Shown: one piece after another, positions 38,487-54,200 of the stretch
Position numbering within the stretch: position 1 is the stretch's first letter
Layout: every line of letters starts with the position of its first letter
Source: Methanothermococcus thermolithotrophicus DSM 2095
GTDB taxonomy: Archaea > AGJL01 > Methanococci > Methanococcales > Methanococcaceae
DNA length: 64,000 bases
Assembly (NCBI RefSeq): GCF_946463545.1
Contig: NZ_OX296583.1
Coordinates: 1,426,001-1,490,000 of the forward strand
Direction: 5' to 3'
The notes under the pieces: model-generated
What the model was told of the DNA's origin: nothing
Database searches by the model: none
The model's input: the letters and a program-made list of their open reading frames with translations, nothing else
Program-made: the position numbers and the translations under genes

Positions 38487-39317
38487 ATGAATAATTTTAA
38501 AAGTGCTATTACAGGGTTTATTCTATTACTATTAGTCGGGGTTATTGGGGTAACCGGAATATCATTCGCACTGGATGGATGGTACATCGTAGATGAAACC
38601 GAAGTAGGAATTGTAAAAACATTTGGAAAAATAAACCAAGAACCTGTAGGTGCAGGATTACATTTCAAATTACCAGTTGTTCAGTCAGTCGTAAAAATGA
38701 ATACTTACGAAAAAACATTAGATATGACTCAAAAACAAGGGAACGCAATAAAAGCGTTAACAGCTGAAGGATTACCTGTAGTCATTGATATATCGATACA
38801 GTACAAAATCAATCCTAACAAAGCACCAGAGTTGTACGCCACTATAAAAAATCCAGAATCATGGATGACGAGTAGAATAAGGGCAAAAGTAAGAGATATA
38901 ATTGCCCAATATACTGTAGAGGACCTATATACAGACAGGAGAACAGAAGTTCAAGAAAAAATTGCATCTGCAGTTCAAAAAGAGTTTGACAGTAAGGGAA
39001 TAATGATAACTGCCACGTTGATTAGGAATATTGATTTGCCAGATCAGGTTGAAGGTGCCATTGAACAGAAACTGAGGGCAAAACAGGAAGCAGAAAAAAT
39101 GAGGTTTGAAGTACAAAAAGCGAGATTAGAGGCAGAAAAGAAAATTGTTGAAGCTCAAGGGCAGGCAAATGCTACAGAGATTATGGCTAAAGCCATTAGA
39201 AAGAATCCAGAAATTCTTGAATATAAAAAACTAGAAGTTTTGGAAAAATTGGCTGAAAACAACAACAAAGTGTTCGTTGTTCCTGGTTCGAATGATTTGT
39301 TACTTAACGTAAATTAA
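38487..39317 (+). CDS. SPFH/prohibitin-family membrane protein
   Basis: The 276 aa protein has an N-terminal membrane helix (TGFILLLLVGVIGVTGISFA), then an SPFH domain (DETEVGIVKTFGKINQEPVG, AGLHFKLPVVQSVVKMNTYE) and a C-terminal coiled coil rich in Ala/Glu (RAKQEAEKMRFEVQKARLEA). This is the prohibitin/HflC order. Such proteins form ring scaffolds on membranes and can modulate proteases. It has an AAGGGGG ribosome binding site. It stands alone. The neighbourhood of the ESCRT-like cluster 1.5 kb downstream is probably chance. Confidence 0.88.
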   Translation: MNNFKSAITGFILLLLVGVIGVTGISFALDGWYIVDETEVGIVKTFGKINQEPVGAGLHFKLPVVQSVVKMNTYEKTLDMTQKQGNAIKALTAEGLPVVIDISIQYKINPNKAPELYATIKNPESWMTSRIRAKVRDIIAQYTVEDLYTDRRTEVQEKIASAVQKEFDSKGIMITATLIRNIDLPDQVEGAIEQKLRAKQEAEKMRFEVQKARLEAEKKIVEAQGQANATEIMAKAIRKNPEILEYKKLEVLEKLAENNNKVFVVPGSNDLLLNVN

Positions 39318-40851: not shown

Positions 40852-41379
40852 ATGAGTAATTTAATAGTGGTAGATTATGACAAAGATGCTGAGAGAAAGA
40901 GGATTGATTACCTAATCGAAAGATGGTCAAATAAAGGAAATTTGGAGAAAATAAGAAAGATGGCTATAATAGCAGATATAGATGACGTGGATGGATTTGT
41001 AAAGGATATTATGTCCCGTTTGGAAGGAAATCCTGAAGAGAAAGTGAGGGTCTATGAAATTAAAGAATTGAAAAAAACAATATCTTCAAAAAAAACCACA
41101 CTGAGCTATAAGATTACCGATAAAAAAGAAGCTGTAGAGGGTTTTTTAAAATATCTTATGATAAAACTCGGTGCAAGCTACGAATGTTCTGTAAATGGTA
41201 CAAAAAAATACGAAGTATACACAAAAAAAGGGAATTGTTCCATTTCAATCAAATTAAAAGAAAATAATGAAAATAAATTGATAATAAACTTTGAAATTGA
41301 AGGTTACGGCGAAAGTGTGGATTTAATAAAAAATAAAATTGACAATGATATGAAATTATTTATTGAGGGGTTATTATGA
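40852..41379 (+). CDS. Hypothetical protein, first gene of the ESCRT-like cluster
   Basis: This 175 aa protein is soluble and charged; I do not recognise it. The N-terminus is helical (KDAERKRIDYLIERWSNKGN). The second half looks like an alpha/beta domain (KEAVEGFLKYLMIKLGASYE, CSISIKLKENNENKLIINFE). Its stop overlaps the ATG of the next small gene (ATGA), so it is translationally coupled to the cluster and likely belongs to it. Confidence 0.65.
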   Translation: MSNLIVVDYDKDAERKRIDYLIERWSNKGNLEKIRKMAIIADIDDVDGFVKDIMSRLEGNPEEKVRVYEIKELKKTISSKKTTLSYKITDKKEAVEGFLKYLMIKLGASYECSVNGTKKYEVYTKKGNCSISIKLKENNENKLIINFEIEGYGESVDLIKNKIDNDMKLFIEGLL

Positions 41380-41507
41380 GTCTGTTTTCAGAGGGGAATT
41401 ATGAACAATTAGATAAACTAAAACAAAAAGCAAACAGAGTATTAAGGGATGGATACGATATAATATATGAACCTTATGAAAAAGGGTGGAGTTATGGAAT
41501 AGAATAA
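41376..41507 (+). CDS. Small protein, 43 aa
   Basis: The protein reads MSLFSEGNYEQLDKLKQKAN then RVLRDGYDIIYEPYEKGWSY and GIE. The start overlaps the stop of the preceding gene (ATGA), and the end overlaps the start of the next gene by 22 bases. This tight packing favours a real gene. Its opening MSLFSEG resembles the MSLW/MELW openings of the following proteins, so it may share a membrane- or partner-binding N-terminus. Confidence 0.5.
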   Translation: MSLFSEGNYEQLDKLKQKANRVLRDGYDIIYEPYEKGWSYGIE

Positions 41508-43111
41508 AAGAAAACTATGAAAAATACAAAGATGGGGAATGCGGGACTTTTTCAAAAGACCTTGACAATGCCGTAAGAAGAGATTTTGAATGGGCATTAG
41601 CAACACTTGCATTTAGTTTTTACCATAACAACGAATCATTTCCAGCAATTAAGCGATATAGTTTTAAGGAGCTCGAACTTGTGGAGTATATTTTAAAATA
41701 TAACGTATTTGAAATCTGGACAGCAGATGATATTTTAAGGGAAATAAGCAAAGCAAATAGAGACGGCACAGATAAAACCTTAAACCTTCTTAAAGAATAT
41801 TATAACAACATAGGAAAAAAAGTTGATGAAATTATCAAAGACCACACGATAAAACTTCCAATAAGGGATTATGCCCAAACAAAATGGAAAGAATACAAAA
41901 CTAAAATGGATGAAGCAATATTCAGGGCAATGAAGGAAATAGATTGGTTTAGTGATTTTATAACGGGCGTAGATAATAAAATCCAAAAACTTGAAAATGA
42001 AATTTACGAGCTCCGTGATTTTGTAAGGGTGGAAAAGAGAAGGTTGAGGGATGAACTCAAACGAGAAAAAGAAATAGAACTGTCAAAAATTGAGGAAATG
42101 AAAGAAGAGTTAAAAAGAAGGTTTGAGAGGGAAAAAGAAAAGATAAGAATAGAAATTGAAATGGAGAAAAATAGGGAGCTCCGAGAGAAACTAAACAAAG
42201 AAATTGAATATATTGAAGAGGATTACAGGGACTTTATTGATGAGTTAAATGAAAAAATAGAATCACTGGAATCAGAAAAAACAGAATTAAAGGAGAAAAA
42301 TGAGAAATTAACTGACCTTTTAAAAAGGATAAGGGATGCTAAAAAGGAAGGTTCGAGATTTGTAAGAACAGAAAACGCATTATCCTATGAGGAATGGTTT
42401 ATTGGACGATTGGATAAAAAATTAGATGAAATGAGGAAAACGGGCGTGAAAGTTGAAAATAAAACTTTTAAAATAATCTCTATTGAAGAAGTATTTAATC
42501 CAAACAATTCAGTGGAACTTCCTAAAAATAAACAAATAAAAGCAGTGTTAAAGGAGAAAAAGCTTAATCCGTTTGGTAAAAAGATGGAAGTAATGTTGAG
42601 GGGGATGTTCTTAGCAAATGGGGGAAATTACAAAAAAATGGGTTTTGATGTTTATCCAATATCATTGGGTAAAATAATTGAGGTGGTGGAGAATGTGAAA
42701 GATGGCAGTTTTGATAAAATTGTGTTACTGATTGCCTCACCAACGGGTTTTGAGGATGAAGTAATTAAATTTGTCAATTCTGATGACTTTAAAATGAGAT
42801 ATTTATCCAAAAAAATTGCTCTCGCACTTCTCGATGTTGAAACTGGAAATTTATACTATAATGAAGTGGATGAGTATGCAAAGGCATTTGCACCATTGAT
42901 GAGCTTGGAATTTGATAAGGAGAAGGTTGAAAGATTGAAAAAGTATATTGATGAGAACATATTTATAAAAAGATATATTACGCTGGAAGAGGCTATCAAT
43001 GAAGTTGGGGATGAAAGGGTGGCAAAAAAGGTATTTTATGAGTACGAATCTTCTGGAAAGGGGGAAACTAAATATTATAAAGAAATTGGTTTTGTTTTGT
43101 TAAAAAAATAA
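41486..43111 (+). CDS. Large coiled-coil protein of the ESCRT-like cluster
   Basis: The 541 aa protein starts at GTG 41486 (MELWNRIKENYEKY, an amphipathic helix). Residues 1-165 are helical. Residues 170-290 form a long coiled coil (LRDELKREKEIELSKIEEMK, FEREKEKIRIEIEMEKNREL). The C-terminal 230 residues form a globular domain (FDKIVLLIASPTGFEDEVIK, then YITLEEAINEVGDERVAKKV, possibly a small winged helix at the very end). I do not recognise the family. By position it could play the part of CdvA, the coiled-coil protein that recruits ESCRT-III in Sulfolobus; that is inference. Confidence 0.7.
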   Translation: MELWNRIKENYEKYKDGECGTFSKDLDNAVRRDFEWALATLAFSFYHNNESFPAIKRYSFKELELVEYILKYNVFEIWTADDILREISKANRDGTDKTLNLLKEYYNNIGKKVDEIIKDHTIKLPIRDYAQTKWKEYKTKMDEAIFRAMKEIDWFSDFITGVDNKIQKLENEIYELRDFVRVEKRRLRDELKREKEIELSKIEEMKEELKRRFEREKEKIRIEIEMEKNRELREKLNKEIEYIEEDYRDFIDELNEKIESLESEKTELKEKNEKLTDLLKRIRDAKKEGSRFVRTENALSYEEWFIGRLDKKLDEMRKTGVKVENKTFKIISIEEVFNPNNSVELPKNKQIKAVLKEKKLNPFGKKMEVMLRGMFLANGGNYKKMGFDVYPISLGKIIEVVENVKDGSFDKIVLLIASPTGFEDEVIKFVNSDDFKMRYLSKKIALALLDVETGNLYYNEVDEYAKAFAPLMSLEFDKEKVERLKKYIDENIFIKRYITLEEAINEVGDERVAKKVFYEYESSGKGETKYYKEIGFVLLKK

Positions 43112-43156
43112 TTAGAAAATAATTAGGAAACTAACTAAAATAAAATAGGTGAAAAA

Positions 43157-43798
43157 ATGAGTTTATGGAACAAAATAAAAGGGAAATTACAAAAAAATCC
43201 AATAGAAAAATTAACAATAAGAGACTTAGAGGGGGAAAGAATTAGATTAAAAAGTAAGTTAGATAGGGTGAAAAAAGAGATAAAATCATTGGATAAGCAA
43301 AAAAAGCAATTATTCAAAGAAGGGGTTGGTGCCGATAAACTCACAAAAAAAATGCTTGCACAGGACATAAAAAGTGTTGAAATGGAAATGAGATTAAAGT
43401 ATAAAAGCTTCCAAACTTATCAGAAGCAGTTTAATTTTGTAAATAACCTGTTAATTGTTAAAAAATACGAAAAAGAATTGAAAAATATAGGAATGTGGAA
43501 TAAAATTAACAACATACAACCTGAGCTCTTGGAGTTAAAACTGAGTGATATAATACTTGATGGTAAGGAGTTTGACCAAACTGTTGAGGGGTTGAATAAA
43601 GTATTTGAAATGAGAATTGATGATTTTGATGAGGAAGTCGATAGCACAGAGAAAAAACTATTCGATGCATGGGGGCAGGCTGAAAGTGGTGATATGGAAG
43701 CTGATGAGGTTGTGAGCAATTTGAACTTGGATACTGATGGGGAGGAAGAAGAGGACGATGAAGAATTATTTAAGAGATTAGAGAAGGAGAATCAATAA
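43157..43798 (+). CDS. ESCRT-III-like protein 1
   Basis: The 213 aa protein has the ESCRT-III plan: a short amphipathic N-terminus (MSLWNKIKGKLQKNP), a basic first helix pair (LEGERIRLKSKLDRVKKEIK, SLDKQKKQLFKEG, then LAQDIKSVEMEMRLKYKSFQ), more helices and an acidic C-terminal half. It ends EEEEDDEELFKRLEKENQ, which fits the MIM1 pattern (D/E)xxLxxRLxx(L/K) that Vps4 MIT domains bind. Residues 155-175 (NKVFEMRIDDFDEEVDSTEK) would be the helix 5 region. It is 45 bases after the coiled-coil gene with a GGTG ribosome binding site. The identification is by pattern, not by database search. Confidence 0.7.
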   Translation: MSLWNKIKGKLQKNPIEKLTIRDLEGERIRLKSKLDRVKKEIKSLDKQKKQLFKEGVGADKLTKKMLAQDIKSVEMEMRLKYKSFQTYQKQFNFVNNLLIVKKYEKELKNIGMWNKINNIQPELLELKLSDIILDGKEFDQTVEGLNKVFEMRIDDFDEEVDSTEKKLFDAWGQAESGDMEADEVVSNLNLDTDGEEEEDDEELFKRLEKENQ

Positions 43799-43969
43799 TA
43801 ATTTAATTTTTTATTTTTTTGAATATAATGTTATGTGGGATATTGTGGTATTTGATAAGATTAAAATCCCGATATCTTATGAAGTAGTGGCATCAGCGGA
43901 GGTAATAATCCATAAGATTAAATTAGGTTTCAAATGTGATTAAAATATCTCAAAAAATGAGGGGATAAA

Positions 43970-44605
43970 ATGTTAGGTAAATTAAAAAGTCTGTTCTCTA
44001 AAAATAAAAATCCATTAGATATGCCATTAGATAAACTAAACGAATCAAAAATAAAATTGGATATTCAAGTTAAAAAATTAGAAGATGAGCTCTCAAAAAT
44101 AGACGACCAAATTACAATATTGTTTGGAAAGGCAAAGAGCTCTAAAAGCAAAAGTGAAGAATTGACAATTGCTACAAAAATAAAAACTCTCAGTCAAAGA
44201 AAAAAGCAATTACAAAATTCTCATGCTCTATTAAACAAACAGGTGAGATTCGTAGATAATCTTTTAGTAATAAAAGAAAATGAAGAGATTTTAAAATCCA
44301 CGCCTTTATGGAACACACTAAACAGTATGTCGCCACAGGAGTTGGAAAATTATCTAATTAATATGAAAATAAACAGTGAAAATATTATCGGAACACTAAA
44401 TAACGCTCTCGGTATCACCGATGACATGCTGAGCTCGGCATCAGAAGAACATGATGAGGATATTGCTGATATTTTAAATACAATACATGCGGTTAAAGAG
44501 GGGGAATTGGATATTGACGATGCAAAGGAAATAGTATCCGATGAAAAGAAGCAGGAAAAAGAAGACGATTTTGAAAAGGAATTGAAAAGAATATTAGAAG
44601 AATAA
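43970..44605 (+). CDS. ESCRT-III-like protein 2
   Basis: This 211 aa paralogue of the preceding protein starts MLGKLKSLFSKNKNPLDMPL, has the same long basic helical hairpin (KIKLDIQVKKLEDELSKIDD, then TLSQRKKQLQNSHALLNKQV) and the matching middle (VRFVDNLLVIKENEEILKST; protein 1 has FVNNLLIVKKYEKELKNI). The acidic tail ends DDFEKELKRILEE, again MIM1-like. Having two unequal ESCRT-III paralogues next to a Vps4 gene is as in Sulfolobus CdvB sets. A GGGG ribosome binding site precedes the ATG; it lies 51 bases before the Vps4-like gene. Confidence 0.7.
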   Translation: MLGKLKSLFSKNKNPLDMPLDKLNESKIKLDIQVKKLEDELSKIDDQITILFGKAKSSKSKSEELTIATKIKTLSQRKKQLQNSHALLNKQVRFVDNLLVIKENEEILKSTPLWNTLNSMSPQELENYLINMKINSENIIGTLNNALGITDDMLSSASEEHDEDIADILNTIHAVKEGELDIDDAKEIVSDEKKQEKEDDFEKELKRILEE

Positions 44606-44656
44606 TTATTATCACTATTTTTTAATAATTATATTATCATATTTGGGGGGATTATA

Positions 44657-45877
44657 TTGGAAATTGATTTATCCGGAGCTCTGATGAGTCAGTTTAAAAG
44701 AGCTAAAAAAGAATATGAGATAGCAAAGGAGAAAAAGAACGAAAGTATTGCTAAAAAAAAGGCGTTAGAATGTGCCAAATTATTGAGACAAATAGCAAAG
44801 TATGATGGATACAATGAAAAAAGCTATTTGGAGAAAGCTAAAAAATGGGAGTTAGTGGCAAATAACATAGAAGAAGTATTTAATCCATCAAAAGCTAATA
44901 AATCCAAACCTACAAAAAAATCAGCACCATCAAATAAACCAAACTCATCAAACACCACAGAGGATGAGGCAGAAGATGAAATTGATAAGTTTAAAAATTT
45001 TGTGAAAAATAATTTAATACAAAAATCCACTATGAAGTGGGACGATATAGGGGGGTTAGAAGAAGTAAAACAGCTTATGATGGAAACCATAGTAATATCA
45101 GCACTTCAAAAGCCTGCATCAATACAACCATGGAAAGGGATTTTATTATTTGGACCACCAGGAACAGGTAAAACACTATTAGCTTCTGCATGTGCTGGAA
45201 GTTTGGAAGCAACATTCTTTAATGTGAAGGCATCATCCGTATCAAGTAAATACTACGGCGAATCTTCAAAAATTGTAAGTGCATTATATGATGTTGCAAG
45301 GGAGCTCCACCCAAGTATTGTATTTATTGATGAAATCGATGCCTTAACAACAAAGAGGAGCGATGGAATAAGTGAGGCATCAAGGAGGATGTTATCAACT
45401 TTATTAACAGAATTGGATGGTTTTCAAGATAAGGGGAGCGATAGGTTAATATTAACACTTTCGGCAACAAATACGCCATGGGATTTAGATGAGGCGGTGC
45501 TTTCAAGGTTTTCAAGGAGAATTTATATTCCTTTACCTGATAAAGAAGCTACAAAGGAAATTATTAAAATTAACACAAAAGGGGTTAAGTTGAATGTTAA
45601 TTTAGATGAAATTGCGGATAAGTGTGTGGAAAAACTCTATTCTGGTAGGGATTTAAAAAATCTCTGTCAGGATGCTATTTGGAATATGATTAGGGATGTA
45701 AATAAGGATTTGTATAAAATGGCTAATTTGTCCTATAAAGAGTTGAAGAGGAGGAAGTTAAAAACAAGAGCTCTGACTGATGATGATTTTGAAGAGGCAT
45801 TTAAGAAAATAAAAAGCCCTTTAACTAAATCTGAAATTGAGAAGTATGAGAAATGGGGGGAGGAATTTGGAGGATAA
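44657..45877 (+). CDS. Vps4/CdvC-like AAA ATPase with MIT-like domain
   Basis: Vps4 ATPases pull apart ESCRT-III filaments. The 406 aa protein has an N-terminal three-helix MIT-like domain (residues 1-75: KRAKKEYEIAKEKKNESIAK, LLRQIAKYDGYNEKSYLEKA), a low-complexity Lys/Pro/Ser linker (78-105), and an AAA domain. The latter shows WDDIGGLEEVKQLMMET, Walker A FGPPGTGKT, pore loop SKYYGESSKIVSALYDVARE, Walker B IVFIDEIDAL and RFSRRIYIPLPDKEA, very close to the Vps4 form. The end TKSEIEKYEKWGEEFGG matches the Vps4 C-terminal helix. The start is TTG at 44657, six bases after GGGGGG. Confidence 0.85.
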   Translation: MEIDLSGALMSQFKRAKKEYEIAKEKKNESIAKKKALECAKLLRQIAKYDGYNEKSYLEKAKKWELVANNIEEVFNPSKANKSKPTKKSAPSNKPNSSNTTEDEAEDEIDKFKNFVKNNLIQKSTMKWDDIGGLEEVKQLMMETIVISALQKPASIQPWKGILLFGPPGTGKTLLASACAGSLEATFFNVKASSVSSKYYGESSKIVSALYDVARELHPSIVFIDEIDALTTKRSDGISEASRRMLSTLLTELDGFQDKGSDRLILTLSATNTPWDLDEAVLSRFSRRIYIPLPDKEATKEIIKINTKGVKLNVNLDEIADKCVEKLYSGRDLKNLCQDAIWNMIRDVNKDLYKMANLSYKELKRRKLKTRALTDDDFEEAFKKIKSPLTKSEIEKYEKWGEEFGG

Positions 45878-45923
45878 TTAACATATTTTTTTAATTTTTT
45901 ATATCATTCAATAAGGTGATATA

Positions 45924-47487
45924 ATGAAGTTTAGGAATTTGTTGATTGGGATATTATTAGTTGGGATTTTTGTAAATGTTGGAGTTGTTTTTGGAGAGGA
46001 TGTTGTAAAGCCAGAGTGGGCATATCATTTAGGTGATTGGGCAAGTGCTATATCGATAACTCCTGATGGAAAATATATCGTTGCTGGAACGGGGGGCTAT
46101 GGAGGTAATGGTGATTATAAAGTTTACTTATTTAATAATAAAGGAAACTTACAGTGGTCTTATAAAATAGATGGTAAAGTAGAATCTGTGGCAATAACTC
46201 CAGATGGTAAGTATATAGTTGCGGGAACATGGTTTGACAAAAATGGAAATAATCATAGAGATTCAGAAGACTATGGGAAAGTATATCTTTTTAATAAAGA
46301 TGGAAATTTATTGTGGAGTCGTAATTTAAATCCTACAGTATATGATGTTTCAATATCTTCTGATGGAAAATACATTGTTGTAGCATATTCCAATAAGCTT
46401 TCTGTTTTTGATACCAAAGGGAATCTATTATGGTCATATGAAACATACAGGTGGATATACTCTATATCGATAACTCCTGATGGAAAATATATCGTTGCAG
46501 GAACTGGCAGCACCGGTGACTATGGTAGGGTTTATCTATTTGATTAATGAAGATAATGTATTGTGGAGTTATAATGCGGGTTTTGTTAGATATGTTTCCA
46601 TAACTCCGGATGGAGAATACATAGTTGCTGGAAAAACCCCTCATGGAACAAATAATGGTCAAGATGACGAAAATACAATTTATTTATTTAATAAAAATGG
46701 AAAATTACTTATGAGTTATAATGTTAAAGGAAAAATTCGTGAAAAATCTATATCAATATCACCGAATGGTAATATTGTTGTTGGTACCTGGGTTGATGAA
46801 AATAAAGACAATGTAATGGACCCTATGGATACAGGATATATTTACTTTTTTGATAGTGGTGGATTGAAATGGAAGTACCATACTAATGAAGGTATCCACT
46901 CTACATCCGTAGATTTTAATGGCAAATATATAGTTGCTGGAGGTACTCATGGTTCAATATACTTGTTTAATAATAATGGAGATACATTGTGGAATTATAA
47001 ATTACAACGATTAATTACGGTTTCTATAGACTCATATGGAAAATACATTGTTGTAGGGTCATTATTTGATATTTATTTATTTGATAACCAAAAAATATTA
47101 GAAATTTTAAAAGAAAAAGACAATGGAACACTTGAAATATCATCAAATCTACCAAATGCTAAAATTTATATTGATGGCAAATATAGTGGATTAACTCCAA
47201 AAACTATTAAATTACCGCCTGGAACTTATGAAATTACACTAAAAAAAGAAGGATACAGCGATTATAAGACCATACTAACCATCAATGGTGGAGAAACTAA
47301 AAATTTAAACGTTAATTTAAAACCTGTAGTTGCAGAAACAACTAATACACCCAATACTAAAGAAGAAAAAGTTTCTGTGGGGACTAATACTAATAAGGAT
47401 AACAACAACCTGTTATTTATAATCATGGGGCTATTAATAACTGGCGGAGTAGTAGGTGGGATTTATTATGCAAAAAAAAAGGCATAA
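45924..47487 (+). CDS. Secreted/anchored beta-propeller with PEGA domain, frameshifted
   Basis: Two reading frames (45924..46547 and from about 46545 to 47487) make one protein of about 520 aa if one extra T near 46542-46545 is removed. It has an N-terminal signal peptide (LLIGILLVGIFVNVGVVFG), seven or so WD40/PQQ-like blades with the repeated core (A/S)ITPDGKYIVAGT...YLFNKDGNLLWSY, a PEGA domain (GTLEISSNLPNAKIYIDGKY, GTYEITLKKEGYSDYK), a linker and a C-terminal membrane helix (FIIMGLLITGGVVGGIYYA) then KKKA. So the propeller would sit outside, held at the membrane. The next gene, a kinase, overlaps its end. Confidence 0.75.
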
Positions 47488-48676
47488 GGGAGAATCTAAG
47501 ATTCCAGACTTTCCAAGAGAATTATTAAACAAATACATTCCACTACAAAAATTAGGAGAAGGTGGATTTGGAAAAGTATTTAAAGTTAAAAGAAAAGGCG
47601 GAACATTACCATTAGCAATAAAAACACCTAACTTAAACGAAAAAGCTAAAAAATACTTATTAAAAGAAATCAAAGCATGGAAAAATCTTAATCATCCAAA
47701 CATAGTTAAACTATATGATACATTCACAGAACCAATCCCGCATATAGAAATGGAATATATTGAAGGATGTAACATAAATGGAAAATCAGTAAAAGATTTA
47801 GATGATTATCCAAAACCATTAAATCCAAAGGAAAGTATTAAACTAATAAAACAAATAGCAGAAGGGTTAAAACACGCTCATGACAAAAACATAATCCACA
47901 GAGATATTAAACCATCGAACATCCTATTAACTCAAAATTTAACACCAAAAATAACAGACTGGGGATTGGCAAAAATAGGGGCAAAATCATCAACAGCAAC
48001 AACCACAAAGGGATTAACTTTACTATATTCAGCACCGGAGCAAATAGATGAAGAAGAATACGGAAAGACAGATAAAAGAACGGATATTTATCAGTTAGGA
48101 GTTTTATTCTACGAGTTATTAACCGGTAGATTACCTTATGAAGGAACTTCACCAGCTCAAGTATCATTAAAAATAGTAAATCCAGATAAAAAACTACTAC
48201 CGCCATCAAAAATAAATCCTAATTTGTCAATATTTGATGGAATATTTGAAAAACTCTTGGCAAAGAAAAAGGAAGATAGATTCCAATCAATAGATGAGTT
48301 TTTAGAGGCTTTAAATTCATTAGGAGAACTAATCAAAGAAAAAGAAGGGTTCAAAAACACATTAACCAAAACCATACAAAAACTAAAAACATCAACTGAC
48401 AAAAAAGAGATTGAAACATTAACTAAAGAGCTCATAAACTCAACAACAAAACTTGCTTTAAACTGCGCAGATACAAATGATAAAGTTGGATTATTGGAGG
48501 CATTGGAAATATTAAAAGATCATGCCAAATCAGATGAAAATAGAAAGGACTTGGAAGGAGCAATAAAACATATAGAATATTTAATAAAAGAAAGCATCCC
48601 TCTTGGAAAAGATACTAGGGAGAAACTTAAAGTTTTAATCAATAGGATTAAGAGAGATGAAAATAAAATATATTAG
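47468..48676 (+). CDS. Eukaryotic-type Ser/Thr protein kinase 1
   Basis: The 402 aa protein contains a full kinase domain: glycine loop LGEGGFGKVFKV at about 23, AIKTP with the ATP-binding Lys, catalytic loop HRDIKPSNIL, metal motif DWG (in place of DFG), SAPEQ (APE) and RTDIYQLGVLFYELLTGRLP. A helical C-terminal part of about 120 residues follows. It has no membrane helix, so it acts in the cytoplasm, under the anchored propeller gene it overlaps by 20 bases. ATG 47468 follows GGTGGG; an in-frame GTG at 47456 lies inside that site. It is probably cotranscribed with the Vps4 and phosphatase genes. Confidence 0.9.
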   Translation: MQKKRHKGESKIPDFPRELLNKYIPLQKLGEGGFGKVFKVKRKGGTLPLAIKTPNLNEKAKKYLLKEIKAWKNLNHPNIVKLYDTFTEPIPHIEMEYIEGCNINGKSVKDLDDYPKPLNPKESIKLIKQIAEGLKHAHDKNIIHRDIKPSNILLTQNLTPKITDWGLAKIGAKSSTATTTKGLTLLYSAPEQIDEEEYGKTDKRTDIYQLGVLFYELLTGRLPYEGTSPAQVSLKIVNPDKKLLPPSKINPNLSIFDGIFEKLLAKKKEDRFQSIDEFLEALNSLGELIKEKEGFKNTLTKTIQKLKTSTDKKEIETLTKELINSTTKLALNCADTNDKVGLLEALEILKDHAKSDENRKDLEGAIKHIEYLIKESIPLGKDTREKLKVLINRIKRDENKIY

Positions 48677-48821
48677 ATTTGGTAAGAGGTTCCATCCTTG
48701 TTAGGTATTGATTTGATTTCTTGCCAAATAGGTATTTTCAATATATAAATGTAAAATAAAAAATAAATTTGTGTTTATGATTTACCAAATACTATATACT
48801 ATAAGAGTCCAAGGTGAAATT

Positions 48822-49000
48822 ATGAAAAAATATATCTGGCAATTCTAATGTCGTTATTGGCAACTGTAACTTTTTGCGGATGTATTGATGAATATTCAAA
48901 ATACATAAATGATGTATCTAATGTAGTATATCGGTGCATTATATATGGAGGGGGGAAATATGATAGAATATATTTGGGAATCATTCACATATATATTTAA
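48822..49000 (+). pseudogene. Short lipoprotein-like frame broken in an A-run
   Basis: An ATG at 48822 follows a good AAGGTGAAAT site but stops after 8 codons. If the run of six A at 48825-48830 had seven, the frame would read MKKIYLAILMSLLATVTFCG then CIDEYSKYINDVSN, a signal peptide ending in a lipobox-like Cys. It would then overlap the next gene. Either a decayed gene or a sequencing slip. Confidence 0.45.
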
Positions 49001-49931
49001 AGATAAAAATTGGAAAAAAAAGCTTGTTAAGGGTGGGGCAATAGGGGTAATACCTCTACTTAATATTTCATTACTTGGCTATATGGTAGATATGATAACT
49101 CTTATTTATAAAGGTAAAAATAATGAGTTGCCTGAATTTGATATATCTAGTCAATTTATCGATGGATTTAAGATATCCGCAGTTCTTTTTGTATATTTTA
49201 TATTATTTTATATATTGCTTATTGTGATTCTCGGTATTTTTTCGGTAATTTTCAAAGACAATATTTTTAGTGTTATTGGTATTGTGTGCTTCGCAATATT
49301 TATGTTATTCATGCATATCGCATTTTCACATTACATATATACCAACAAAATATCTTCATTTTTTGAATTCACTACATTATTTAGAATACTTAAAAAAACA
49401 TGGGTTAATATCCTAATTTTTGATATTATTTACTATATTATTATGGGCTTTTTAGCTATTGCGATATATATAATGGCAGCCCTATTTTCCATGACAATTA
49501 TATTAATTCCTGTGGCTATTTGGTTATTGGGGGCATTCTATTATTATTCCTGCATAGTATTTGGTTATTTCTGTGGAAAAGTATACTTAGAAGGAATTAA
49601 TAAAAAACCAATAACTATGGGCTCCAAAGTGTTACCGACCAAGACGGTATCAAACAATAACAAAGATTTAAATCTACTTAATTCCTACCTATTAGGGGCT
49701 AAGGAGCTATTACCCGGAGCATTGGATGATTTTCGAAACAACAACTTAAATGATGCCATAAAAAAATGGAATAAATCATTGGAATACTATAAAAAAGCAG
49801 AGAAAATAGCAAAATCAAACAAAGATGAAGAATTAATTTCATCCCTAAATAATAACATTAAATCAGTAGTCCATAACATATTAGATGCAAAAATTAAATT
49901 AGTATCTGATAAAATTGGGGGGATGGTATGA
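48960..49931 (+). CDS. DUF4013 membrane protein with helical C-terminal tail
   Basis: The 323 aa protein starts with the DUF4013 signature MIEYIWESFTYIFKDKNWKK and has five or six membrane helices (residues 25-220). Residues 228-323 form a soluble helical tail (LLPGALDDFRNNNLNDAIKK, WNKSLEYYKKAEKIAKSNKD) that looks like a TPR or MIT-type three-helix domain. In the context of an ESCRT-III/Vps4 cluster this could be a membrane anchor for filament proteins; that is inference. The ATG 48960 follows GGAGGGGGG. The next kinase gene overlaps its stop by 4 bases. Confidence 0.75.
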   Translation: MIEYIWESFTYIFKDKNWKKKLVKGGAIGVIPLLNISLLGYMVDMITLIYKGKNNELPEFDISSQFIDGFKISAVLFVYFILFYILLIVILGIFSVIFKDNIFSVIGIVCFAIFMLFMHIAFSHYIYTNKISSFFEFTTLFRILKKTWVNILIFDIIYYIIMGFLAIAIYIMAALFSMTIILIPVAIWLLGAFYYYSCIVFGYFCGKVYLEGINKKPITMGSKVLPTKTVSNNNKDLNLLNSYLLGAKELLPGALDDFRNNNLNDAIKKWNKSLEYYKKAEKIAKSNKDEELISSLNNNIKSVVHNILDAKIKLVSDKIGGMV

Positions 49932-51432
49932 TAAAGGAAATATTAAATGAAATAAATGCTATTGAGAGATTTTTAAAAAATCATAGGGAGTATTTAGGGG
50001 AGGAGTATGCCAAATATCAAACCACATTAAACGAGCTCAGGTTAAAAGTTAAACTAAAAGAAATCGAAAATAATGTAATGGATGCTTTAACATTGAAATC
50101 AGATGAAGAGTATTTAAAAGCAAGGGATCTCTTAAAAAAATCTTCTAACGATATTGATAAATTAGAGGATGAAATGATAAATTTAAAGATAAAAACATTT
50201 AACAGTCAAATTACTAACTTAAAAAATCAAATAAATAATGAATTAAACTTCATAAAAAATTTGTTATTAGGTGAAGACTCCTCAATAAATGCGCCATATA
50301 ATTCCTCATCGGTTAATTCTTCAAATCCTATAAATCAATCATTTAGTGGAGAAAACGAATTATTGAATATACTAAATGAATTATTATCAAAATATCAAAA
50401 TCCTATAAAAATTGGGGAAGGGGGATTTTCCCATGTATTTAAAGTAATTAAAAATGGAAAGACAGTAGCCCTAAAAGTCCCGAAAGAATTAACTGAAATT
50501 ACTGGGGAGTTATTCCTTAGAGAAATAGGAAATTGGAAAAAATTAAAACATATCAACATTGTTCGACTTTATTATAGTAATATTTATCCATATCCATACG
50601 TGGAAATGGAATACTGTGAAAAGGAATTAAATAAAATAAAAAATAATTTAGAGTTAAAAGAAGCAGTTTTATTATTTTTTGAAGTGTTAAATGGACTGAA
50701 ATATGCACATAGTAAAGGGATAATTCATAAGGATTTAAAACCACACAACATTTTAATAAACAACAACATACCAAAAATTACAGATTGGGGACTATCAAAA
50801 GAAACTACTTCAAAATCCACAACTATAAACGCTTTAACTCTACAATACTCAGCACCAGAACAAATAAGCAGGGGAACAATCGATAAAAGGACGGACATTT
50901 ATCAAATGGGGGTAATCCTATACGAATTAACAACAAAAAACTACCGTTTAATGGTAATGAGTTTGACATAATCGATAGTATTAAAAACGAAATGCCGCCA
51001 AAACCATCGAAATTAAATCCTTTAATTGATGAGGAGTTGGAAAATATTATCTTAAAATGTATCCAAAAAGACAAATCCAAAAGATACCAATCAGTAGAAG
51101 AATTGCAGAAGGATTTATCAGAATACCTAAACATACAACTTACAACTAACCTTACAGCTTCAAAAACAAATAAAGATTTTAGTAGAAGTATATTCTATTG
51201 TGCTGATTTGGTTTTATTCCACTTATTAAACAACGATTTAGGGGATGCTTTAAATTATCTCTACGATTTAAAACATTATGCAAATAAGAATTGCTCTGAG
51301 GAAATAATAAATTCCGTTGATAATCTAATAAAAGCTATCGAATATCGGATTAAAGAAGGGATAAAGGAGCCATCCGATGAGATAAAAATAAAGGCGAAAA
51401 TAGTAGTAAATAAGGTTAAGATGAGATTTTAG
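49928..51432 (+). CDS. Eukaryotic-type Ser/Thr protein kinase 2, frameshifted
   Basis: Two frames (49928..50971 and 50992..51432) form one protein of about 501 aa if the A6 run at 50935-50940 had seven A. The joint then reads YELTTKKLPFNGNEFDIIDS, as in normal kinases. Residues 1-120 are a coiled-coil domain (NEINAIERFLKNHREYLGEE). The kinase domain has IGEGGFSHVFKV, VALKVPKE, HKDLKPHNIL, DWG, SAPEQ and RTDIYQMG. HKDLKPHN differs from the usual HRD but keeps the catalytic Asp. The C-terminus is a helical domain related to that of kinase 1. As written, the protein lacks the end of the kinase lobe. Confidence 0.8.
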
Positions 51433-51440
51433 GGGGTAAT

Positions 51441-52331
51441 ATGGAAATAATAAACAAATTTCTAAAAAAAATTGGATATAAGAAAGATGGAGAAGAAAAA
51501 AAGGACAAATCTAAAACCAAAATAAAAATTGAAGAAGAAAAAACCATGGATATCGAAATTCCAAAAATTGAACCTACTGAAAATTTTAATCGTGATGAAA
51601 TTGTTTTTGAGGAAGATAATGCCTACGGTATATCCCACAAAGGAAATAGAACAAACAACGAAGACAATATCTTAATTAAAAAAATAAAAGATACCTACAT
51701 ATTAGCAGTTGCAGATGGTGTCGGAGGGCACAGCTCAGGAGATGTTGCATCAAAGATGGCAGTGGATATTTTAGAAAACATTATCATGGAAAAATACAAT
51801 GAAAACCTATCAATTGAAGAGATAAAAGAACTTTTAAAAGATGCATACATTACGGCACACAACAAAATAAAAGAAAACGCTATTGGAGATAAAGAGGGAA
51901 TGGGAACAACACTAACAACTGCAATAGTTAAAGGGGATAAATGCGTTATAGCAAACTGCGGGGATAGTAGGGCTTATTTAATTAGAGATGGAGAAATAGT
52001 TTTTAGAACAAAAGACCACTCTTTGGTTCAGGTTTTAGTAGATGAAGGACATATTTCAGAGGAGGACGCAAGGCATCATCCAATGAAAAATATCATTACC
52101 TCAGCATTGGGATTGGATGAATTTAAGGTAGATGATTACGAATGGGATTTAATTGATGGTGATGTATTATTGATGAGCTCCGATGGGCTTCATGATTATG
52201 TCAGTAAGGAAGATATTTTAAAAACTGTAAAAAATAATGATCACCCAAAAGATATTGTAGATGAATTATTCAATACTGCATTAAAAGAGACAAGGGACAA
52301 TGTGAGTATTATCGTATATAAAAAGCAATAA
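51441..52331 (+). CDS. PP2C-type protein phosphatase
   Basis: The 296 aa protein has a Lys/Glu-rich N-terminal 65 residues and then a PP2C domain: GNRTNNEDN, VADGVGGHSSGDVAS with metal-binding Asp, MGTTLTTAIV, NCGDSRAYLIRDG, LMSSDGLHDYVS and the final RDNVSIIVY. All metal Asp are present, so it should be active and reverse the two kinases. The N-terminus MEIINKFLKKIGYKKD could be an amphipathic anchor like those of the ESCRT-III-like proteins. It starts 9 bases after the kinase 2 stop and is the last gene of the cluster. Confidence 0.92.
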   Translation: MEIINKFLKKIGYKKDGEEKKDKSKTKIKIEEEKTMDIEIPKIEPTENFNRDEIVFEEDNAYGISHKGNRTNNEDNILIKKIKDTYILAVADGVGGHSSGDVASKMAVDILENIIMEKYNENLSIEEIKELLKDAYITAHNKIKENAIGDKEGMGTTLTTAIVKGDKCVIANCGDSRAYLIRDGEIVFRTKDHSLVQVLVDEGHISEEDARHHPMKNIITSALGLDEFKVDDYEWDLIDGDVLLMSSDGLHDYVSKEDILKTVKNNDHPKDIVDELFNTALKETRDNVSIIVYKKQ

Positions 52332-53359: not shown

Positions 53360-54200
53360 ATAATTTAGATAAGAATATGATTGAGTATGATGACATTTAC
53401 GGCATCAGATTATCCAAATTATATGGAATTAAAAACAATTATCACGATATATTTGATAACTGGAAAGTAGACCTTGTAAAATCGGCTATTGTAAAAAACA
53501 ACGATGAAGAAAGAAGATTAATGTTTGTTGCAATCACTCGGGCAAAGCAGTATGTATTTTTCACGTCCCACAATCCATCGGAGTTTTTTAATGGACTTTT
53601 GAAGAATATGGTAATGGTGTTGAAGAAATTGAAGAAGTTGAAATAAAACCTGCTGAACAATTTAATGAATCTTATGAAAAAATAGATATAAAGCTTCCAG
53701 AATGTGAAAAAACTAAAACTGTTCTTGCTGTGCATGATATTATGAGGTATAAACCGTCTGCAAGTGAAAAAGGAAAGGCGGGAAAAGGTGTTGAATTTGG
53801 AAAGTATATTCACCATGTTGCTGAGCAAATAGCTCTTGGAAGGGAAGTTAAAGAAGATGTTGAAGAAGTTAAACGAATAAAAAAATTCATTTCAGAACTT
53901 AACGCAAATGAGTTATTAACTGAAATTGAATGCTCCCTTCCATTAGGTGATTACATAATTAGGGGAGTTATTGATTTAATAGCAATATATGATGATAGGA
54001 TTGAAATAATTGATTATAAAACAGATGTTTCCAAAAATAACCATTTTGAATATGTTAAACAACTATCAATATATTATCATGCTGTTAAGGAATACTATAA
54101 TAAAAAAACTGTATGTAAAATATACTATGTGAGCTCCGATGAAGTTGTTGAAGTTGAGCCATTGGATTTGGAGTCTATCATAAAAGAACTTAAAAAATAA
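53360..54200 (+). pseudogene. UvrD/RecB-like helicase-nuclease, C-terminal remnant
   Basis: The first frame (from about 53365) reads NDEERRLMFVAITRAKQYVF, the helicase motif VI region of UvrD/AddA enzymes. After a one-base frameshift near 53600 (one A missing) it continues as EYGNGVEEIEEVEIKPAEQF, then KPSASEKGKAGKGVEFGKYI and a RecB-type nuclease: RGVIDLIAIYDDRIEIIDYKTD. All the helicase core upstream is missing. It abuts the truncated CARF gene head to head. Confidence 0.7.

Follow-up and report, generated by a model that had tools for sequence, protein, structure and literature searches.

Gene Cluster and Its Conservation

The DNA considered here, called the window, is a stretch of 64,000 nucleotides from Methanothermococcus thermolithotrophicus DSM 2095 (contig NZ_OX296583.1, positions 1,426,001 to 1,490,000), whose genome consists of one contig of 1.7 Mb. 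The system in question is a gene cluster at 40852–52331 that carries a Vps4-type AAA ATPase, two ESCRT-III-like proteins, a coiled-coil protein, Ser/Thr kinases and a PP2C-type phosphatase. As shown in Table 1, in which positions are window coordinates, all open reading frames (ORFs) of the cluster lie on the plus strand, and every ORF named in an initial annotation, made from the DNA letters alone, was found in its place on this strand. The single plus-strand cluster claimed there holds up, since its gene order recurs in Methanococcales and Thermococci more than chance would allow. Among the cluster proteins, PEGA, the WD40-type propeller, Pkinase, DUF4013 and PP2C all score above their Pfam cut-offs, so that the two kinases, the DUF4013 membrane protein and the PP2C placed downstream of the ATPase are confirmed, kinase 1 being part of a larger receptor gene; the ESCRT-III-like proteins A and B, the coiled-coil protein and the 175-aa protein have no Pfam match over the cut-off. 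The 175-aa gene and the coiled-coil gene overlap, the stop codon of the former sharing bases with the ATG of the latter at 41376.

Of 36 Methanococcales genomes, the same 13 carry both a Vps4 of this type (at least 78% identical) and ESCRT-III-like protein B, and a phylum-wide search took in the same 36. A diverged version is found in a fourteenth genome, and the 23 of 36 Methanococcales without the system include 7/7 genomes of the genus g2. A neighbourhood survey across Methanococcales found the gene order kept among carriers, and the order recurs in Thermococci; in the locus L057 (genome G014), the cluster is divided into two blocks with roughly 10 kb between them and extra kinases near each, the second block consisting of ESCRT-III B, vps4 and PP2C. 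The large coiled-coil protein noticed in the initial annotation has orthologues in both groups, with an open frame of 570–590 aa in Methanococcales, and its profile matches 40 of the 115 genomes of the Thermococci class. Every one of the 15 Thermococci loci whose stretch spans this part (L180 to L194) has the order 175-aa protein, coiled coil, ESCRT-III A, ESCRT-III B; the contig of another locus, L066, starts inside the coiled-coil gene. Vps4 is found in the stretch at 10/15 of these loci and at L066, with kinases alongside and PP2C in four, while the remaining Thermococci stretches end too early or show no Vps4 nearby.

Table 1. Features of the ESCRT-like gene cluster, in window coordinates.
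Feature	Position	Strand	Remarks
175-aa protein	40852..41379	+	Size and gene position fit arCOG08177 of the Main-clade ESCRT systems
Coiled-coil protein, fits arCOG09748	41376..43111	+	Annotated frame from GTG 41486, 541 aa
ESCRT-III-like protein A, 213 aa	43157..43798	+	
ESCRT-III-like protein B, 211 aa	43970..44605	+	Predicted hairpin 20–56 / 61–103 and short helices
Vps4-type AAA ATPase	44657..45877	+	MIT-like domain (predicted fold) at about 1–75, AAA, Vps4_C
Putative receptor kinase, N-terminal piece: signal peptide and start of WD40-type propeller	45924..46547	+	
Putative receptor kinase, middle piece: remaining propeller, PEGA, C-terminal membrane segment	46480..47487	+	PEGA 69.9 bits; same-frame fusion to kinase in relatives
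Putative receptor kinase, cytoplasmic piece: Ser/Thr kinase 1 and C-terminal helical domain	47456..48676	+	ATG 47468 beside A9 tract 47472–47480
DUF4013 membrane protein with TPR/MIT-like helical tail	48945..49931	+	Pfam; DUF4013–kinase 1 fusion in L052/L065, L058, L060
Ser/Thr kinase 2 with N-terminal coiled coil	49928..51432	+	Split by one-base deletion in A tract 50935–50940
PP2C-type phosphatase (Stp1-like)	51441..52331	+	Pfam PP2C_2 69.8 bits; NCBIfam Stp1 214.5 bits against a cut-off of 230

Vps4-Type ATPase and ESCRT-III-Like Proteins

The protein encoded at 44657 matches Pfam AAA with 130 bits and the Vps4_C oligomerisation helix (PF09336) with 28.7 bits against a cut-off of 21.3. In a PDB profile search with this ATPase, Cdc48 was ranked first; the ranking was set aside and the search was unable to decide the grouping, because the two AAA domains of Cdc48 add up, and a tree was used instead. 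In this tree (IQ-TREE, 38 AAA domains, 251 columns), the window ATPase and its relatives fall with CdvC of Desulfurococcales, Pyrodictiaceae and Aramenus with an ultrafast bootstrap (UFBoot) of 100, the same side also holding the Vps4 proteins of Lokiarchaeota and Cuniculiplasma, while Cdc48 D1/D2 and other archaeal single-AAA proteins lie on the opposite side of the split (UFBoot 100). By sequence comparison, the protein is thus a Vps4-type ATPase that groups with CdvC/Vps4 and not with Cdc48; the grouping with Cdc48 or proteasomal ATPases that would have spoken against the initial annotation is not what the tree gives.

The N-terminal 79 residues of the ATPase are predicted as three helices (pLDDT 88). 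The top Foldseek match of this part is the MIT domain of Sulfolobus Vps4 (2w2u), though with an E value of 0.42, and VIA-align superposes it on both 2w2u and 2v6y with Z 10.9, a root-mean-square deviation (rmsd) of 2.4 and 73 aligned residues. About 12 MIT domains stand in the VIA-align top 50, interspersed with designed helical proteins of like Z. The N-terminus is therefore predicted, from its modelled fold, to be an MIT-like domain resembling 2w2u, and together with the tree and the Vps4_C match this upholds the Vps4-like ATPase with MIT-like N-terminus and Vps4 C-terminal helix as first described.

The two proteins encoded directly upstream of the ATPase, A and B, are paralogous, with a search match of E 6e-11 and a profile–profile match of E 1e-18, so that the paralogy and position claimed for them are borne out. 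In the AlphaFold2 (AF2) model of B, a long hairpin is followed by short helices, with a pLDDT of 90–94 in the first helix. When this fold was compared with CdvB and CHMP proteins, the Foldseek list was found to include CdvB2, Asgard ESCRT-IIIB, CHMP1B, CHMP2A and CHMP3, none of them significant, and the CHMP4B hairpin (4abm) aligns with the B model with Z 9.1, rmsd 1.3 and 77 aligned residues, a Z that unrelated hairpins also reach. In searches of the family profile against 177,635 PDB sequences, archaeal CdvB and CdvB2 rank first with weak E values of 0.023 and 0.041. Profile A8, run alone against the PDB, yielded NF-YC instead of ESCRT-III, and this candidate was rejected. Profile–profile alignment with CdvB/Asgard ESCRT-III (hhalign in local mode, 30 column shuffles as controls with a probability of at most 0.2) is co-linear over 175 columns with P 2.4e-4 and a probability of 43.

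The charge pattern is uniform: all 51 A and B sequences have a net charge of +5 to +17 over their initial 110 residues and of −10 to −20 over the final 60. A MIM1-like tail motif (e.g., DEELFKRL) is present in some Methanococcaceae, while most Thermococci are without it, and a stricter pattern finds it in 9/26 A and 2/25 B sequences. It is likely that A and B belong to ESCRT-III, because weak sequence signals, the predicted hairpin, the basic core with acidic tail and the fixed place upstream of vps4 all point there. A further arrangement was observed at the Cuniculiplasma locus (L069:9219-13529), where Vps4 is accompanied by three ESCRT-III-like or coiled-coil ORFs and by a second AAA gene downstream.

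Receptor Kinase and Frame Shifts

The initial annotation had read the region downstream of the ATPase as a secreted propeller/PEGA anchor followed by a separate kinase; the domains are as claimed, and what does not stand is their division into separate genes. In six relatives (L050, L053, L054, L057, L059 and L066), the counterpart of kinase 1 forms the C-terminal portion of a single ORF of 752–1273 aa, in which PEGA or propeller–PEGA and a membrane segment precede the kinase; in L052/L065, L058 and L060, this counterpart is joined to a DUF4013-bearing part. Comparison with these relatives identifies the propeller/PEGA protein and the first kinase as pieces of one transmembrane receptor kinase gene, as which they occur in most relatives. 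For instance, in a Thermococci archaeon (L066:4780-8598), a 1273-aa protein consists of propeller-like repeats, two PEGA domains, a membrane segment, a macro domain and the kinase. The idea of a sensor that reads something outside the cell through the propeller is strengthened, because several relatives carry the propeller, PEGA, the membrane segment and the kinase on a single polypeptide.

In the window, the receptor kinase is in three pieces through two single-base shifts: an extra T at 46544–46545 terminates the first propeller frame, and the A9 tract at 47472–47480 terminates the second frame, where A8 would join the frames. Similarly, kinase 2 has A6 at 50935–50940 against A7 in its closest relative, where kinase 2 is whole, and the coiled-coil gene has A5 at 41479–41483, where A6 is needed to connect it to the start codon that relatives use, at 41376. 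The cluster thus holds four single-base shifts in three of its nine genes, three of the shifts lying in A tracts, and no such shift was found in 21 orthologous ORFs elsewhere in a comparison of 200 kb of the host genome with 280 kb of the G022 genome, a small sample. The shifts in the cluster may reflect sequencing error, decay or phase variation.

Two helical regions of the other membrane and kinase proteins were also compared with ESCRT components. The tail of the DUF4013 protein (49620–49925) looks TPR/MIT-like and aligns with the MIT domain of CdvC in hhalign with P 0.0013; a copy of this tail in a relative (L055:7680-7916) has a weak Pfam MIT match with E 0.029 and a TPR_2 match with E 0.0037. 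The N-terminal coiled coil of kinase 2 (49928–50317) shows weak profile similarity to ESCRT-III B, with P 1.2e-4 over 72 columns, which could be a chance match between coiled coils.

Relation to Known ESCRT Systems

It has been reported by Makarova et al. in 2024 (mBio, PMC10936438) that a ‘Main’ Vps4 clade occurs in Thermococcales, Methanococcales, Methanomicrobiales and Halobacteriales. According to the text of this paper, Main-clade systems all have arCOG09748 and arCOG08177 adjoining Vps4 and ESCRT-III, where arCOG09748 consists of a helical domain, a coiled coil, a central domain and a C-terminal winged helix and arCOG08177 of Cas2-like and TBP-like domains; many of these systems add kinases and phosphatases, which are typically membrane-bound. 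Its authors deduce a key part for phosphorylation and, for complex ESCRT systems in FtsZ-bearing hosts, a use in vesicle formation or sorting. A literature search found arCOG09748 named in this paper only.

The window cluster shares with the Main clade, as its text describes it, Vps4, ESCRT-III, a candidate helper pair fitting arCOG09748/arCOG08177, a Ser/Thr kinase and a phosphatase. The arCOG numbers were given to the window proteins by size, architecture and place relative to that paper and not by the arCOG database: the coiled-coil orthologue sits upstream of ESCRT-III in Methanococcales and Thermococci, as fits arCOG09748, and the 175-aa protein, which is without a Pfam match, adjoins the coiled-coil gene in both groups, a position like that of arCOG08177. 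The membrane-bound kinases and phosphatases of the Main clade have their counterparts in the kinases fused to the propeller–PEGA–membrane segment or to DUF4013 in relatives and in the PP2C. Unlike the membrane-bound kinases with Ig-like repeats in the paper's text, the outside part here is a propeller with PEGA, or DUF4013; propeller–PEGA variants may be drawn in its figures, because PEGA and PQQ are among the figure abbreviations. The cluster represents a type of system already known, from a group that this paper names. The initial annotation knew of no description of this combination, but the text of the paper gives one, with Methanococcales included. What is added here to the published concept, namely the fusions of the receptor kinase and the clustering of the frame shifts, is modest.

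Other ESCRT-related systems are more distant. The crenarchaeal Cdv system (CdvA, CdvB, CdvC) likewise has a CdvC-like ATPase with an MIT-like domain and Vps4_C and ESCRT-III-like partners, but window proteins A and B (211–213 aa) are without a winged-helix-sized extension, kinases and a phosphatase are part of the window system, and the host has FtsZ and SepF. Bacterial PspA/Vipp1 proteins share the helical hairpin of the ESCRT-III superfamily, but they form separate families and are without Vps4. Asgard and eukaryotic ESCRT systems combine ESCRT-III with an MIT-bearing Vps4 as well, but no ubiquitin-linked parts were seen in the window cluster, and the ESCRT-III sequence similarity is near the detection limit.

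Proposed Mechanism and Alternative Explanations

The cluster is probably a Methanococcaceae member of the published ‘Main’ euryarchaeal ESCRT clade, carrying out kinase-controlled membrane remodelling. Gene content and order, orthology, the AAA grouping, the predicted MIT-like and hairpin folds and the receptor-kinase fusion in relatives are direct observations, and from here on we infer every step of the mechanism. ESCRT-III A and B, with basic hairpins and acidic tails, would assemble on the inner membrane surface, assisted by the coiled-coil and 175-aa proteins; the Vps4 hexamer would grip their tails through its MIT domain and take the polymer apart, and this disassembly would lead to membrane deformation or scission. 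The receptor kinase, with its propeller/PEGA part outside and its kinase inside, together with kinase 2 and PP2C, may switch the assembly on and off or mark cargo. The outcome would probably be vesicle formation or protein sorting rather than cell division, which is not a likely job because the genome encodes two FtsZ proteins and one SepF; the initial annotation's statement that Methanococcales divide with FtsZ agrees with these genes. Its proposal of a phosphorylation-controlled membrane remodelling or vesicle system is likewise supported as regards kinase/phosphatase control, and phosphorylation with vesicles or sorting is already proposed in the text of PMC10936438.

Several observations weigh against this reading. 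The AF2 alignments were shallow, with 6 and 3 sequences; no PDB fold match of the ESCRT-III model attains an E value of 0.001 in Foldseek, where a chlamydial coiled-coil protein tops the list; and the MIM1-like tail is limited to a minority of sequences. By sequence, MIT was not detected in the ATPase by Pfam, the PDB profile search or profile–profile comparison with CdvC, none of which rises clearly above controls. No match to Pfam Snf7 (PF03357) was found in the genome or in the A and B proteins; this blank is uninformative, because the genomes of L072 (CdvB beside CdvC) and L069 (ESCRT-III-like genes beside Vps4), in which ESCRT-III genes are evident, do not match the model either. In addition, the receptor kinase, kinase 2 and coiled-coil genes are frame-shifted in the window, and therefore the system may be partly dead in the host genome.

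An alternative function is envelope repair, in which the receptor kinase would sense damage to the S-layer or membrane and trigger sealing patches of ESCRT-III, as PspA/Vipp1 does in bacteria. PspA belongs to the same superfamily as ESCRT-III, the sensor with its signal peptide, propeller, PEGA and membrane segment faces outward, and the model matches PspA (4whe) with Z 9.0, rmsd 3.1 and 103 aligned residues, although long hairpins match widely and such fold matches do not tell PspA from ESCRT-III. However, no stress-response gene of a known kind turned up in the cluster, and the lack of Vps4 in Psp systems also speaks against this function, which is unlikely. Vesicle formation or sorting is preferred over it, and both are preferred over defence or division.

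A bolder version of the vesicle or sorting reading would see an ESCRT core with exchangeable sensors, in which propeller–PEGA, DUF4013, Ig-like or macro domains sit on one kinase stem according to species, the DUF4013 tail acts as a membrane-bound MIT-like recruiter of ESCRT-III, and the A-tract shifts in sensor, kinase and adaptor genes form a reversible on/off switch and are neither decay nor sequencing error. As a whole, this picture appears decidedly improbable.

An antiviral defence island, in which kinases and the AAA ATPase act against viruses and are gained and lost patchily, would fit the patchy presence (13/36), but the AAA domain groups with Vps4, the order of the ESCRT genes is kept across two classes and, in the text of PMC10936438, the Vps4 tree is taken as mostly vertical with losses. 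PADLOC matches the kinases to defence kinases and the ATPase to IetA; these matches are only generic kinase and AAA similarity, and a defence system, which is highly improbable, was rejected. A role as a cell division helper alongside FtsZ, suggested by CdvB/CdvC, which divide Sulfolobales, is hardly credible given the FtsZ and SepF of the host and the Methanococcales, g2 among them, in which the system was not found.

That FtsZ-bearing archaea possess ESCRT machinery suggests tasks for ESCRT other than division. The association of this machinery with kinases and a phosphatase is relevant to how ESCRT was regulated before that role passed to ubiquitin in Asgard archaea and eukaryotes. The function is open to testing, because many Thermococci have the system and this class includes genetic model species.

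Neighbouring Genes

An SPFH/Band 7 protein is encoded at 38487–39317, 1.5 kb upstream of the cluster; its gene was not found adjoining the cluster in the relatives searched, and a different type of archaeal ESCRT system includes SPFH genes according to the text of PMC10936438. Downstream, at 53377–54200, two short frames match a UvrD C-terminal domain and a PD-(D/E)XK nuclease and are probably the remains of one broken helicase–nuclease gene.

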